This document shows, in pieces, positions 3,234 through 35,383 of a DNA stretch of 64,000 nucleotides; position 1 is the first letter of the stretch; each line of letters opens with the position of its first letter. Under the pieces are notes generated by a model. The model saw only the letters and a list, made by a program, of their open reading frames with translations. It had not been told where the DNA came from and made no database searches. Source of the stretch: Nocardioides mesophilus. GTDB lineage: Bacteria; Actinomycetota; Actinomycetes; Propionibacteriales; Nocardioidaceae. Where the stretch lies: NCBI RefSeq assembly GCF_014395785.1, contig NZ_CP060713.1, forward strand, positions 2,012,501 to 2,076,500. Direction: 5' to 3'. The position numbers and the translations under genes are program-made.

Positions 3234-4202
3234 CTAGACCGTCGCGCCGCTCCCCGGGCCGGCCGGCGGCGACGGCGGTGGTGTCGGCAGCTCCTCGGAG
3301 ACCTGGTCGTGCACGATCGCCGAGCCGGCGACCTGGCCCGCCGCGGCGGCCGACAGTACGGCGGCCATCGGCATCGGCAGGGACGGCCGGTGGGCCGCAT
3401 CCCCCGCGGCGTAGACGCCCGGACGGCTGGTGCGGCCCAGATCGTCGACCGACACGCAGCCGGACGGCAGCAGGTCCAGGCCCAGCTGCTCGGCGAACGG
3501 GGCGGCCTGTGACAGCACCGGCGCGACGAACAGACCGGCGACGTCGACGGCGTCCCCGGTGACGAGCTCCACGCGAGCGCCGGGGGAGCTCTCGCGCACC
3601 CCGACCACGCGCGAGGTCACCACGGTGGCTCCCAGGCTCGCGAGCTGGGTGGCGACCACCGGGTCCGGAGCGGCGCCGTCGGTGAGCACGGTGAGCGACG
3701 ACGCGATCGGCGCGAGCATCCCGGCCAGCACCGCTGCGTGCGGCGTCGCCGCGAGGATTCCCACCGGCGAGCCGGTCAGCTCGTGGCCGTGGCAGAACGG
3801 GCAGTGCGCGACGACGTCACCCCAGAGCTCCGCGAGCCCGGGCACGTCGGGCAGGGTGTCGCGCAGCCCCGTGGCGATCAGCACCCGCCGACCCCTGACC
3901 TCCGCGCCGTCGGCGACGTTCACGCGGAAGCCGGAGTCGTCGGGTGCGACGGCGGTGACCCGGGCGGCGCGCACCTCGACGGTGTCGTAGCCGGCCAGGT
4001 CGGCCCGGGCCTGCGCCCGGAACGCGGCCGGCGGCTGACCGTCGTGGCCGAGGACGTTGTGCATGTGGGCGGCCGGGTCGTTGCGGTAGCGGCCGGAGTC
4101 GAGGACGAGCACCGAACGGTGCATCCGGCCGATCGAGAGCGCCGCCTGCAGCCCGGCCGGCCCTCCGCCTAGCACCACCGCGTCGTACGTCTGAGTGTCC
4201 AT
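3234..4202 (-). CDS. thioredoxin-reductase-like NAD(P)/FAD-dependent oxidoreductase
   Basis: 322 residues. It has an N-terminal FAD-binding Rossmann motif GGGPAG (12-17), a redox-active CPFC (134-137) in the position of the TrxB CxxC, and a C-terminal GDAAH FAD motif. The protein belongs to the TrxB/AhpF-C fold, but its partner disulfide protein is unknown. The final 25 residues are a Pro/Gly-rich tail. The start at 4202 is set by a strong AGGAGG seven bases upstream. The gene is divergent from a MerR regulator, and its promoter carries a 24-bp operator in a 19-bp spacer (4241-4271), so MerR-type activation is expected. Arginine deiminase follows 10 bp downstream on the same strand and may be co-transcribed. 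Confidence 0.9.
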
Positions 4203-4240: not shown

Positions 4241-4271
4241 AGGATCTGACTTCATGTCGACATGAAGTCAA
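4241..4271 (-). promoter_or_regulatory. MerR-type promoter with 24-bp perfect palindrome
   Basis: On the minus strand, TTGACT (4271-4266) and GATCCT (4246-4241) are separated by 19 bp. This over-long spacer is typical of MerR-activated promoters. A perfect 24-bp palindrome, 4247-4270 (half-site TGACTTCATGTC), fills the spacer and runs one step into the -35 box. It also covers the ATG (4262) of the divergent merR-like gene, so the regulator probably represses itself while activating the flavoprotein gene. The predicted flavoprotein RNA start is near 4234. Confidence 0.75.
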
Positions 4272-4690
4272 GTGCTCGATCCGTCACCCCGACCTGGTCC
4301 GTCGGTGAGCTCGCAGGTCGCTTCGGACTCGCCACGCACGTCCTACGGCACTGGGAGGACGTCGGCCTCCTCGCCCCGGCCCGCGACGGGGCCGGCCGCC
4401 GCCGCTACGGCCCCGACGAGCTCGTGCGGGTCGCGGCGATCCTGCGCAGCAAGTCCGCCGGGATGTCGCTGGAGCAGATCCGGGCGCTCCTGCACGGCGA
4501 CGCGCATGGCCGGCACCAGGTCCTCGAGGCGCACGTCGCCGAGCTCGACCGGCGGATGGCCGAGATGGAGCTGTCCCGCGAGATGACGTTGCACGCCCTG
4601 CGGTGCCGAGCCCACGACATCGCGACCTGCCCGAACTTCGCCCGCTCGGTGCAGGACCTGATCGAGGGTCAGCCGGCGACGATCTCGTAG
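4262..4690 (+). CDS. MerR family transcriptional regulator
   Basis: 142 residues. The winged HTH of MerR proteins starts at TWSVGELAGRFG (11-22), followed by HVLRHWEDVGLL (26-37). A dimerisation helix covers about 84-112. The C-terminal tail has C115, H118 and C123 in CRAHDIATCPNF, a Cys/His arrangement suited to metal or redox sensing. No other in-frame start exists, so ATG 4262 lies inside its own operator; with a possible TTGTCC/TTCATG promoter ending at 4256 the mRNA may be almost leaderless. The divergent target is the thioredoxin-reductase-like gene. Its last 22 bp overlap the convergent GDT1 gene. Confidence 0.9.
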   Translation: MKSSARSVTPTWSVGELAGRFGLATHVLRHWEDVGLLAPARDGAGRRRYGPDELVRVAAILRSKSAGMSLEQIRALLHGDAHGRHQVLEAHVAELDRRMAEMELSREMTLHALRCRAHDIATCPNFARSVQDLIEGQPATIS

Positions 4691-30073: not shown

Positions 30074-30162
30074 GGAGGGGTGCCGGAGTGGCCGATCGGA
30101 ACCGCCTTGAAAGCGGTCGCTGGCAGAGATGTCAGCCGCGGGTTCGAATCCCGCCCCCTCTG
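30074..30162 (+). tRNA. tRNA-Ser(TGA)
   Basis: 89 bases. The acceptor stem GGAGGGG (30074-30080) pairs with CCCCTCT (30155-30161), with a G-U as the first pair. The anticodon stem ACCGC/GCGGT encloses CTTGAAA, giving anticodon TGA. A long variable arm typical of tRNA-Ser follows, then the T arm GCGGG-TTCGAAT-CCCGC (30138-30154). No CCA is encoded. A TACACT -10 box (30038-30043), with GTGGAC 17 bp upstream, is a plausible promoter. Confidence 0.96.
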
Positions 30163-30200
30163 CTGGGCGGCTCGGGGGAGTCGTCGCAGAAAGGACCACA

Positions 30201-31937: not shown

Positions 31938-32025
31938 GGAGGTGTCGCCTAGTGGCCTATGGCGCCCGCCTGCTAAGCGGGTTGAGGGTGATTCCCTCTC
32001 GCGGGTTCAAATCCCGCCACCTCCG
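31938..32025 (+). tRNA. tRNA-Ser(GCT)
   Basis: 88 bases plus an encoded CCA (32026-32028). The acceptor stem GGAGGTG (31938-31944) pairs perfectly with CACCTCC (32018-32024). The anticodon stem CCCGC/GCGGG holds CTGCTAA, giving anticodon GCT. The long variable arm TGAGGGTGATTCCCTC is typical of tRNA-Ser. TACCCT (31918-31923) may be its -10 box. A strong hairpin terminator follows at 32039-32068. Confidence 0.96.
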
Positions 32026-32038
32026 CCAGACCACGAAC

Positions 32039-32078: not shown

Positions 32079-33626
32079 TCACTGCGGCGCGACCGTGACC
32101 TCCAGCGGCGTCCACGGGCCGACCCGGAACTCGCCGGTGGTGCGCACCATGACCGGCTGCAGCCCGACCGGCCGGCCCTCGCGGTAGGTCACCAGCGTGA
32201 CCTCGGCGTCGCGGCGCAGCTTGCTGCCCAGGGCGACGGCGTACGCCGCCCCGCCGGTCGTCCCGTTGGTGTAGGAGTAGCCGACCGTCCCGTCCGCGGC
32301 GACCACGGGGCTCGGGCCGACCTGCTCGTGCAGGTGGCCGGCGAGGACCAGGTCCACGCAGCCGCGCTCGAGGGCTTCGCTGCCGCTGGCCGCGTCGTGG
32401 ACGAGCAGCGTCGAGATCCGCTCGTCCTTCGCGTCCTGCGCGCAGGCGGCGTCGGCGAGCAGCGTGCGCTGCTCGTCGAAGGTGACCTCGCCGCTCTGGT
32501 CGCGCCAGCTGCCCAGGCCGCTGCTGCGCACGTCGCTGGCCCCCAGCAGCCTGATCCCGTCCGGTCCGTCGACGACGTCGCCGACCAGCGTGGTGAAGCC
32601 GAGCCCGGCGAGGTATTCGGTGACGAAGTCGCCGTTGTCGTGGTTGCCCGCCACGGCGTAGCGGTCGTCGTAGTCGTCGAAGGCGGAGTTCAGCGAGTCC
32701 AGGCTGAACGCCTCCCACGAGCCGCCGGTCGAGGTGTCGTCGCCGGCGTCGAGCAGGAACGTCGCCCCACCGGCGTCGGCGACGGCGCGGGCCACCGGGT
32801 CCATCCCGATGTTGTCGTGCCGGTCGCTGACCAGCAGCGCCACGACCTCTCCCTCCTGCGGTGCGCGGAGCTGGGAGGCCAGCGCCGGGGCAGCGGCGGT
32901 CAGGTCCTGGTAGAACGTCAGGCTCTTGCGATAGGTCGCCAGCGCGCTCTCGACCAGGCGCCGGGTTCCGCTGGTCATCAGCCCGGACTCCACCTCCAGG
33001 CCGGCGGCGCGAGAGGGGAGGTCGACGTCGGGCAGCGCCTCCGCGAGCGGCTGCCAGCTCTGCTCCCGCACGCTCGGCTCGTCGGAGTCCTCGACCAGCG
33101 TCCCGGTGCCGACCGCCGCGACCACCACCAGGGCGCAGACGGCGGTTGCCCCGGTCCGGCGGCGGCTCCACGGGTGCGCCAGCTCGGACCACCGGCGACG
33201 CCCGACCAGCAGCACGAGGCCCGGGGCGGCGAGACCCAGCAGGGCCCCGACGACGGCGCTGTCGAGGGCCATGTCCACGAGGGTGGCGCGCACCTTCGCG
33301 ATCTGGCCCTCGGGCTGGCTGGCGAGCAGTGCGTAGCGCTCCACCAGGGCCTCGTAGGAGCGCAGGTCGGTGGGGCCGAGGTCGAGGGCGGCGCCGAGCC
33401 GGGAGCCGGAGGCGATCCGGAAGCTGGGCAGGTAGGGCCCGAGGTCCACGGTGGCGTAGCCGTCGAGGGTCGGCTCGAGATCGGTGTCGTGGCCGGCGAG
33501 GACGATCGTCCGGGAACCGGTGAGGAAGAGCGTCACCGCGATCGGTACGGCGGTCAGCAGCCAGACCACCGCCAGGGTGGCCGCCCACCGCGGGTCCGGG
33601 CGGCGCAGCGCGGCGAACGGACCCAT
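32079..33626 (-). CDS. membrane-bound metallophosphoesterase
   Basis: 515 residues. An N-terminal helix (about 14-36), an extracellular segment, two more helices (about 120-141 and 161-180), then a C-terminal calcineurin-like phosphoesterase domain outside the membrane. Metal-binding blocks are VSDRHDN (D-x-H), LDAGDD (GD-x), AGNHDNG (GNHD), LLVHDA and LAGHLHEQ (GH-x-H), so the dinuclear site is complete. The substrate could be a phosphodiester or a cell-surface phosphate. ATG 33626 is used because the N-terminal helix starts there. The 320-bp upstream region is shared with the divergent peptide gene. Confidence 0.87.
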   Translation of the reverse strand: MGPFAALRRPDPRWAATLAVVWLLTAVPIAVTLFLTGSRTIVLAGHDTDLEPTLDGYATVDLGPYLPSFRIASGSRLGAALDLGPTDLRSYEALVERYALLASQPEGQIAKVRATLVDMALDSAVVGALLGLAAPGLVLLVGRRRWSELAHPWSRRRTGATAVCALVVVAAVGTGTLVEDSDEPSVREQSWQPLAEALPDVDLPSRAAGLEVESGLMTSGTRRLVESALATYRKSLTFYQDLTAAAPALASQLRAPQEGEVVALLVSDRHDNIGMDPVARAVADAGGATFLLDAGDDTSTGGSWEAFSLDSLNSAFDDYDDRYAVAGNHDNGDFVTEYLAGLGFTTLVGDVVDGPDGIRLLGASDVRSSGLGSWRDQSGEVTFDEQRTLLADAACAQDAKDERISTLLVHDAASGSEALERGCVDLVLAGHLHEQVGPSPVVAADGTVGYSYTNGTTGGAAYAVALGSKLRRDAEVTLVTYREGRPVGLQPVMVRTTGEFRVGPWTPLEVTVAPQ

Positions 33627-33947
33627 CGGACGAGGATAGGTCACCGCGTCGGCTCCGGTGGTTGTCGATCCTGCACAACTACGCAACGATGGTGAATCGC
33701 TGTTTTAGGCGTTTGCGGGGCCTCCGCCCGCGAGATTCGTCCGATTCCTCCCAAAAACGGGGCCGGGCGCGTGCTGTGCTGATTATGGGGGATCCAGGGC
33801 ACCTGTGTCTGCTTGTCGCAGTTTTTGCAGGAACATGCAGTGCACACTCCTGCGGCTGGAATCACTGGCTTGGGGCTCTTGGGTGACCCACACTTGAGGT
33901 CAGGCGGGAAACCGCCACTCCTGGGACGACGAGCATGAGGTAACCAC
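33627..33947. other. 321-bp intergenic region, divergent promoters and structured leader
   Basis: Between the metallophosphoesterase (-) and the exported-peptide gene (+). It is less GC-rich than its surroundings. Visible elements: GTTGT-N9-ACAAC (about 33660-33678), GCAGG/CCTGC arms (33827-33831/33849-33853), and a GAAA-capped hairpin GGCGG-GAAA-CCGCC (33903-33916) about 30 bases before the peptide start. No good -10/-35 pair could be placed. The length suggests a long, possibly regulated leader for the peptide mRNA, but no known riboswitch was recognised. Confidence 0.5.
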
Positions 33948-34115
33948 ATGAACCAGCACCGCACCGCTGCCAAGATCATCGCCGGCCTCACGCTGACGGT
34001 CGGCCTGTTCGCCGGGGTCGTCGCCCCGGCCCAGGCCAACGACACCGGCTGGAACGGCACCAAGACCCTCAACAACGACACCGGCTGGAACGGCACGAGC
34101 ATCACCAACCGCTGA
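33948..34115 (+). CDS. exported 55-residue peptide with duplicated NDTGWNGT repeat
   Basis: MNQHRTAAK is followed by a hydrophobic core (IIAGLTLTVGLFAGVV) and an APAQA signal-peptidase site. The predicted mature product is 25 residues and contains NDTGWNGT twice, 12 residues apart. At DNA level 34038-34060 and 34074-34096 are identical over 23 bp, so a 36-bp unit was duplicated. GAGGTAACCAC precedes the ATG. The peptide has no Cys and no antimicrobial-type charge; small size, export and repeat suggest a signal peptide or surface factor. It converges on a LuxR-type regulator gene 200 bp away. Function unknown; it is easily missed because of its size. Confidence 0.72.
   Translation: MNQHRTAAKIIAGLTLTVGLFAGVVAPAQANDTGWNGTKTLNNDTGWNGTSITNR
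34038..34096 (+). repeat. 36-bp-period tandem duplication within the peptide gene
   Basis: Two identical 23-bp copies, 34038-34060 and 34074-34096, each encoding NDTGWNG plus the first two bases of the following Thr codon. The identical codons point to a recent duplication or strong selection for the repeat. Confidence 0.85.
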
Positions 34116-34137
34116 GCCTCCAGCTACCCCCACAAAC

Positions 34138-34246
34138 GCGACCGGCCATCCCCCCGGCCCGGCTCGCCACACAGGTCCAGACGAGGACGAAACGAGTCAT
34201 CCCCCCGGCAGTTTCGATCCCAGTGCCATCCCCCCGGCCCGTCTCG
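34138..34246 (+). ncRNA. 6C-RNA-like cluster of hairpins with ATCCCCCC loops
   Basis: CATCCCCCCGGC occurs three times: 34147-34158, 34198-34209 and 34227-34238. Hairpin A pairs 34138-34147 with 34156-34167 (GGCC/GGCC core, GCGA/TCGC base). Hairpin B pairs CGAAAC (34188-34193) with GTTTCG (34211-34216) and GTC with GGC inside. Both expose exactly ATCCCCCC closed by a C-G pair. The third copy has only a GCC/GGC stem. Two stem-loops each showing six or more C is the defining feature of the actinobacterial 6C RNA. It lies 22 bp after the peptide stop and would be made as its 3' untranslated region or from its own promoter, with the hairpin 34256-34291 as terminator. Confidence 0.55.
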
Positions 34247-34255
34247 ACCGCACAC

Positions 34256-34291
34256 GCGAGGGCAGTTCATCGTCAGGGTGACTGCCCTCGC
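34256..34291. terminator. 11-bp hairpin between peptide and regulator genes
   Basis: GCGAGGGCAGT (34256-34266) pairs perfectly with ACTGCCCTCGC (34281-34291) around a 14-base loop. It lacks a U-run on either strand. It probably ends the peptide/C6-hairpin transcript and that of the convergent regulator (stop at 34322). Confidence 0.65.
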
Positions 34292-34321
34292 TGCGTGTCC
34301 TGGGGAGGGTGAACGCGGGGG

Positions 34322-35383
34322 TCAGTCGTCCTCGACGGCCTCGACCAGCTCCAGGTCGTCGACCTCGCCGTCCGGCTCCGGCGCGGGGAGCGGCAGCGCG
34401 GCGCCGTCACGGCCCATGGCGTAGCCGAGCTGGAACCGGGTCTGGACGCCGTACTCGTCCTTCAGCGCCGCGATGTAGCCGGCGTACGTGCGGGTGCTGA
34501 CCCCCAGCCGCTTGGCGCTGGCCGGGTCGCTGTGGCCCTCGGTGAGCAGCCGGATCGTCATCGCCCGGACATCGGCGGCGATGTGCCGCTCCGCCTGGTT
34601 CCCGCTGACGTTGAACGGCTGCGCGCGCTCCCAGGAGCGCTCGAAGATGTCGACCAGGTAGGCGATGAGCGACTTCTCGTAGATCGCGATGGCCACGTGG
34701 TGGTTGTCGGAGGCCGGCACCACCGCGACCTGGCGGTCCACGACGATCAGCCGCCGGAAGAACTCGTCGAGCGTGCGGACCTCCGCCCCGTGGCTGATGA
34801 TGTCGGCGACGTACTCCCGGGTGGCCGGACTGTGCCGGGCGGAGTGCTGGTAGAGGGTGCGCATGCGTACGCCGCGCGCCAGCGCCTTCACGTCGCGGTC
34901 CTCCGCCACCGCGAGCGCGTTCGCGGGGCGGCGGCCGTGCGGCTGGGCGGTGAGCAGCTCGGCACGGCAGTCGTTGACCGCGGCCGCGATGAAGTTGTTG
35001 ATGTTGTCGAGCCCGTGGATCTCGGTGATCGGGTGGACCGTGGCCTGGGGGGAGGTCCGGAACACCTGCCCGAGCTCGCTGAAGGTGTCGGCCCAGCGCG
35101 CGGACTCGGTGAGCAGGTCCGCGCCCTGCTGGCCGAGCGGGACCACGATCTGGGCCTGCACCGCCGAGGGGTCCATCGGGTAGAGCCGGTTGCTGCCCTC
35201 GTCGAGGCGGATCAGGCCGATGTCGAGCAGCAGGTCGAGCGCCGGCTGATTGCGCGCGTCGTGCAGCCGCGGGTCGTCCGCCGGCAGGGAGCCGTGCGCC
35301 ACCGCGTTGGTGTAGATCCGCCTCGCCGTCGTCTCCAGCAGCTGGCGATCGTCGGGGCCGTAGCTACCTCGCTCCACGTACAT
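34322..35383 (-). CDS. LuxR-type helix-turn-helix regulator
   Basis: 353 residues. The C-terminal HTH lies at about 270-320 (ADVRAMTIRLLTEGHSD, then RLGVSTRTYAGYIAALKDEYG), a LuxR_C-like form in which an Arg-Thr-Tyr recognition helix follows GVS. The N-terminal 260 residues form a sensor-like region: a helical start (DRQLLETTARRIYTNAV), a winged-helix-like segment (ALDLLLDIGLIRL), and a PLD/TrmB-like domain (AELLTAQPHGRRP, FFRRLIVVDRQVAVVP). The tail is acidic. It has no phospho-acceptor domain. GGAGAGG precedes the ATG at 35383. Convergence with the exported-peptide gene suggests that it senses or controls the peptide. Confidence 0.82.
   Translation of the reverse strand: MYVERGSYGPDDRQLLETTARRIYTNAVAHGSLPADDPRLHDARNQPALDLLLDIGLIRLDEGSNRLYPMDPSAVQAQIVVPLGQQGADLLTESARWADTFSELGQVFRTSPQATVHPITEIHGLDNINNFIAAAVNDCRAELLTAQPHGRRPANALAVAEDRDVKALARGVRMRTLYQHSARHSPATREYVADIISHGAEVRTLDEFFRRLIVVDRQVAVVPASDNHHVAIAIYEKSLIAYLVDIFERSWERAQPFNVSGNQAERHIAADVRAMTIRLLTEGHSDPASAKRLGVSTRTYAGYIAALKDEYGVQTRFQLGYAMGRDGAALPLPAPEPDGEVDDLELVEAVEDD

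Follow-up and report, generated by a model that had tools for sequence, protein, structure and literature searches.

A structured RNA with C-rich loops behind a secreted-peptide gene of Nocardioides mesophilus apparently belongs to a Nocardioidaceae family separate from 6C RNA

Small RNAs (sRNAs) that display C-rich loops are known from Staphylococcus, Xanthomonas, and Helicobacter and, as 6C, from the actinobacteria, in which both peptide signaling and sRNA regulation are poorly charted. 6C RNA (RF01066; B11 in Mycobacterium tuberculosis, scr3558 in Streptomyces coelicolor) is a separate sRNA of roughly 70 to 100 nt. It lies next to rv3660c-rv3661 in mycobacteria, where interaction with the panD and dnaB mRNAs has been reported (PMC8628891), and next to SCO3558 in Streptomyces (PMC8539372). 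In Xanthomonas, sX13 (RF02232) represses mRNAs with G-rich motifs near their start codons and does not need Hfq (PMC3771888). RNAIII of Staphylococcus aureus, a quorum-sensing effector, both encodes a peptide and pairs its C-rich loops with ribosome-binding sites (PMC2837412).

Here, we analyzed a locus of Nocardioides mesophilus that lies in a window of 64,000 nucleotides (the whole stretch of DNA under study). An earlier note on this DNA had described three copies of CATCCCCCCGGC within 92 bp, two of them in hairpins with C6 in an 8-base loop. The triple repeat is borne out by its coordinates (34147 to 34158, 34198 to 34209, and 34227 to 34238); the 4.49-Mb genome holds one further copy, at an unrelated place, and no others. 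All three copies, more than the two noted earlier, place AUCCCCCC on the tip of a hairpin, in 8-base loops of exactly ATCCCCCC in the single-sequence fold (Table 1). Folding of the 201-nt stretch yields −90 kcal/mol (z = −4.1), a stability that none of 200 shuffles attained. A common stem around the second and third hairpins had been missed by the note. The terminator-like hairpin that it placed downstream is present and is kept in relatives, but a T-tract is absent, and a T-tract scan reports no terminator; given the missing T-tract, a terminator role is presumptive.

Table 1. Features of the C-loop RNA locus (window coordinates)
Feature	Position	Strand	Description
Promoter block TGCAGGAACATGCAGTGCACACTCCTGCGG (TGCA-N6-TGCA-N-TGCA)	33826-33855	+	Putative site of the adjacent regulator
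Putative -10-like element ACACTTG	33890-33896	+	64 nt after block start
Secreted peptide gene, 55 aa	33948-34115	+	Two NDTGWNGT repeats after a signal peptide that ends in APAQA; homologs by search
Hairpin H0 ("third loop")	34138-34167	+	ATCCCCCC loop at 34148-34155; stands alone; from folds
Conserved RNA core	34174-34249	+	P1 around H1 and H2; R2 match of 89.6 bits; covariation
Enclosing stem P1	34174-34183 with 34240-34249	+	Single-sequence fold, covariation
Hairpin H1	34185-34220	+	ATCCCCCC loop at 34199-34206; folds, covariation
Hairpin H2	34225-34238	+	ATCCCCCC loop at 34228-34235; folds, covariation
GC-rich terminator-like hairpin GCGAGGGCAG...CTGCCCTCGC	34256-34291	+	Between two convergent genes; conserved in relatives
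Regulator gene	34322-35383	-	TrmB/TrmBL2-like winged helix, PLD-like domain, C-terminal helix-turn-helix (HTH)

In the surroundings of these features, a divergent neighbor upstream of the promoter block (32079 to 33686, − strand) encodes a protein of 535 aa that has a calcineurin-like metallophosphoesterase domain, and two tRNA-Ser genes lie nearby (30074 to 30163 and 31938 to 32028). Since tRNA matches also flank the locus in relatives (L039, L042, L060, L067, and L072), a conserved neighborhood is suggested.

A covariance model of the RNA (R1), built from 6 training genomes, was searched against 341 Nocardioidaceae genomes at a cutoff of E < 1e-4. Matches were found in 43 of the 341, a count that includes one probable false positive along with the training genomes and that rests on rough model E values and on genome samples covering their groups in part. 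Two loci (L069 and L073) look like false positives of the model, and two others (L070 and L135, the latter in G435) are uncertain variants. The model R2, run on 394 genomes from 137 genera of the class, found no match outside the Nocardioidaceae. C-loop hairpins and a terminator-like hairpin lie behind the peptide homologs in all five other genomes from the homolog search, and independent folds of the peptide-homolog loci gave the same architecture.

The earlier note had stated that a lack of stem conservation or of compensatory changes would speak against its reading. Such changes are clearly present: 14 to 18 of 23 pairs changed on both sides across 35 to 40 aligned copies, counted in model-based alignments (A5 and A6) that favor the structure and that were used because MAFFT alignments (A1 to A4) misplace the H1 stems. 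None of 500 shuffles reached any of the covariation measures, and slid-partner controls were far lower. Because A5 and A6 were fitted to the structure, independent folds of single copies matter here: each of the 35 copies, folded singly, had two and only two apical loops with C ≥ 5, against 3.7% of shuffles, which kept the C-runs. The exact 12-bp direct repeats would also suit a function as DNA, be it operator sites or G4/i-motif DNA, rather than as RNA. However, the compensatory stem changes, and a position that always follows a peptide stop codon or promoter block and precedes the terminator-like hairpin, leave that reading barely credible. The comparison supports what the note had proposed, a conserved structured RNA with 6C-like C6 loops behind a secreted-peptide gene. 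Judged on these alignments and folds, the RNA looks real, conserved, and structured, and it is apparently a member of a family of structured RNAs of the Nocardioidaceae, which are soil bacteria, that seems new to science. Our literature search, with most subscription journals outside its reach, found no description of it.

Across the family the C-run varies from C5 to C8, and the bases beside it differ (AUC6, AAC6, CAC6, GUC6). In other genomes, two more diverged loci (L161 and L166) still display three C-loops, borne by different stems, and one of the two has a C-loop on its terminator-like hairpin. It is the displayed C-run that evolution keeps. Conserved C-rich apical loops on variable stems are characteristic of trans-acting sRNAs of the C-rich-loop kind. 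Among these, sX13 resembles the C-loop RNA in having several C-rich apical loops but is unrelated in sequence, has loops of 4C/5C, is gammaproteobacterial, and has no peptide gene. As each RNA carries two or three loops that are nearly identical, one could also imagine a sponge that titrates an RNA-binding protein, similar to CsrB/RsmY with another motif; the variation of the loop-adjacent bases speaks against this, and we consider it quite improbable.

The match to 6C that the earlier note had drawn was not borne out. At gathering score, Rfam reported tRNAs alone in the whole window and no RF01066. That model, whose application to the region the note had proposed as a check, was unmatched in 33650 to 34400 even at E up to 10 and gave no gathering-score match (cutoff, 47 bits) in 15 loci with relatives of the C-loop RNA. 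Rfam matches to CRISPR-DR56, mir-1268, and mir-145 fell below cutoff and were treated as chance. A 6C candidate elsewhere in the same genome (L019, G000:C1:2171427-2171497) scores 38 bits, below the cutoff, and one in a relative (G001) scores 52.6 bits, above it; both are flanked by HAD-hydrolase-like and Ssd-like reading frames (names read from translations). The rv3660c/SCO3558-type locus usual for 6C is accordingly held by the separate candidate. Both RNAs are actinobacterial and have two hairpins with loops of six or more C. Unlike 6C, whose RF01066 consensus consists of two adjacent hairpins with no enclosing stem, the C-loop RNA has its hairpins inside the covarying P1 and lies at a peptide/regulator locus rather than at HAD/ssd.

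The presumed seed is nonetheless almost equal in the two RNAs despite their differing architectures, since the own-genome 6C candidate displays AUCCCCCC and AUCCCCC loops. This likeness, the C6 loops, and a weak 21-bit match of R2 that overlaps the candidate would be consistent with a second, diverged copy of 6C that the Rfam model is too narrow to score. Against such a copy stand the P1 stem, the different locus, the silence of RF01066 in the 15 loci, and the occurrence of both RNAs side by side in the same genome and in G001, and we consider it very unlikely. On the evidence of this comparison, the C-loop RNA is not 6C.

In 30 of 35 RNA copies, the gene just upstream is short and encodes a signal-peptide-like start followed by D-x-x-W (DTGW, DTSW, DSSW, or DYQW). 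The predicted mature peptide of N. mesophilus is NDTGWNGTKTLNNDTGWNGTSITNR; a search for the peptide in plasmids found none. Of the 30 loci with peptide and RNA, 29 have the regulator gene next to them in convergent orientation, and the contig of the thirtieth ends too early. The conserved order is the secreted D-x-x-W peptide, the C-loop RNA, the terminator-like hairpin, and the convergent TrmB-like regulator. In these 29 of 30 loci peptide and regulator genes stand side by side, as is typical of peptide quorum-sensing loci; in several genomes the pair is kept also without the RNA. The domains of the regulator were assigned from an AlphaFold model (mean pLDDT of 78, pTM of 0.49) searched with Foldseek; its Pfam matches are weak (HTH_23/TbsP_N). 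It shares the winged helix and the PLD-like domain with TrmB/TrmBL2 regulators but has an additional C-terminal HTH and is bacterial.

The earlier note had called the position behind the peptide gene and the third loop unusual. Both are present, but they are conserved (30 of 35 copies and 5 of 5 genus genomes, respectively) and not accidental: by folding, a C-rich-loop hairpin occupies the place of H0 in all 5 own-genus genomes that have the locus, and the third loop is genus-wide and no oddity. Several regulator/peptide loci are entirely without C-loops (e.g., L156, L164, L165, and L167), indicating that the RNA is a frequent yet dispensable third part. The loci L154 to L169, in which regulator and peptide occur and the C-loop RNA is absent or strongly diverged, lie within the same family and could date its gains and losses.

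The block or a close variant lies ahead of the examined RNA copies, and in most of them an ACACTNG-like element follows 61 to 66 nt further on. Counted on both strands, with overlapping palindromic sites counted twice, the exact core pattern totals 30 sites in nine genomes that carry the regulator and 3 sites in ten Nocardioidaceae genomes that gave no match to it; reversed-pattern controls gave 7 in eight of the nine and 7 in the ten. Because block and regulator co-occur across genomes, we infer that the regulator binds the block. In the N. mesophilus genome, one exact and two one-mismatch block sites lie before secreted M6, M4, and M14 peptidase genes (L095, G000:C1:3905592; L110, G000:C1:3593248; L112, G000:C1:3726731), and the block again precedes M4 and M6 genes in two relatives (G088 and G001), which suggests a secreted-peptidase regulon of the adjacent regulator. 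Behind a block site in another genome (G277), L130:1186-1437 (− strand) encodes a protein of 84 aa that looks secreted, contains the repeat LENEPVAPR in four near-identical copies, and may be a further peptide precursor.

Five RNA copies lack a peptide gene (L065, L066, L068, L048, and the second copy in L077/L052). All of them keep the block, and their RNA core begins 74 to 112 nt after its start, which argues for a function of the RNA of its own. In L077 (G420:C1), where two copies stand in tandem on the − strand (3808 to 3880 and 4244 to 4316), the standalone C-loop RNA has a block to itself and lies 436 bp upstream of the copy with a peptide gene. The orientation of the RNA (+) is likewise taken from the promoter block and from the standalone copies. 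Counts of G-U versus A-C (31 versus 31) were uninformative as to strand, as was the greater stability of the antisense fold in 33 of 35 copies, which is expected of the G-rich strand. The standalone copies bear as well on whether the RNA is an element of the 3' untranslated region (UTR) that protects or punctuates the peptide mRNA in cis, with nothing done in trans. Two observations fit this explanation: in 30 of 35 copies the RNA lies toward the 3' end of what is presumed to be the peptide transcript, and some peptide loci have no such RNA. Yet five copies stand under the same block without a peptide gene, and a stabilizer would not need conserved, exposed C-loops on variable stems; we regard a purely cis-acting element as unlikely.

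As to targets, the earlier note had suggested pairing of the C6 loops with G-rich ribosome-binding sites, perhaps that of the regulator. C-loop pairing with the regulator leader was not enriched in the 15 loci tested (one locus at P = 0.02), and the regulator ribosome-binding site was rejected as a general target. Exact GGGGGGAT before ATG was found at 7 sites in two genomes, none convincing and with no conserved gene shared.

The comparison of genomes shows the structure of the RNA, its conservation, its fixed position between peptide and regulator, a common promoter block, and peptide-less copies; the explanation that we favor, and hold to be probable, is a trans-acting C-loop sRNA of an apparently new Nocardioidaceae family, made together with a peptide signal under control of the regulator. 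The regulator would bind the block and switch on both the transcript of peptide and RNA and the secreted peptidase genes, with the peptide acting as an extracellular signal that the regulator may sense directly or indirectly. At loci with a peptide gene the RNA would be an sRNA that is derived from the 3' UTR or has a dual function, and at loci without one it would be a standalone sRNA; in either case it would pair its C-loops in trans with runs of G close to the start codons of the mRNAs that it targets. Action of this kind has been described for sX13 and RNAIII and proposed for 6C.

A more specific and more doubtful reading, which we offer tentatively, is that of an actinobacterial counterpart of agr/RNAIII, composed of a TrmB-like regulator, a transcript with signal peptide and sRNA, peptidases, and extra standalone copies. 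As in RNAIII/agr, a C-loop RNA shares its promoter with a peptide gene. In contrast to that system, to which there is no sequence relation, the adjacent regulator is of the one-component, TrmB-like type instead of AgrC/AgrA, and signaling is here a prediction. New at this locus is the link of a separate C-loop family with a secreted peptide, with a regulator, and with a common promoter element, and named relatives that can be cultured, Nocardioides iriomotensis and N. jiangsuensis, also have the RNA. If the proposed circuit is true, it would provide a compact, testable actinobacterial example in which peptide signaling and sRNA regulation are joined.
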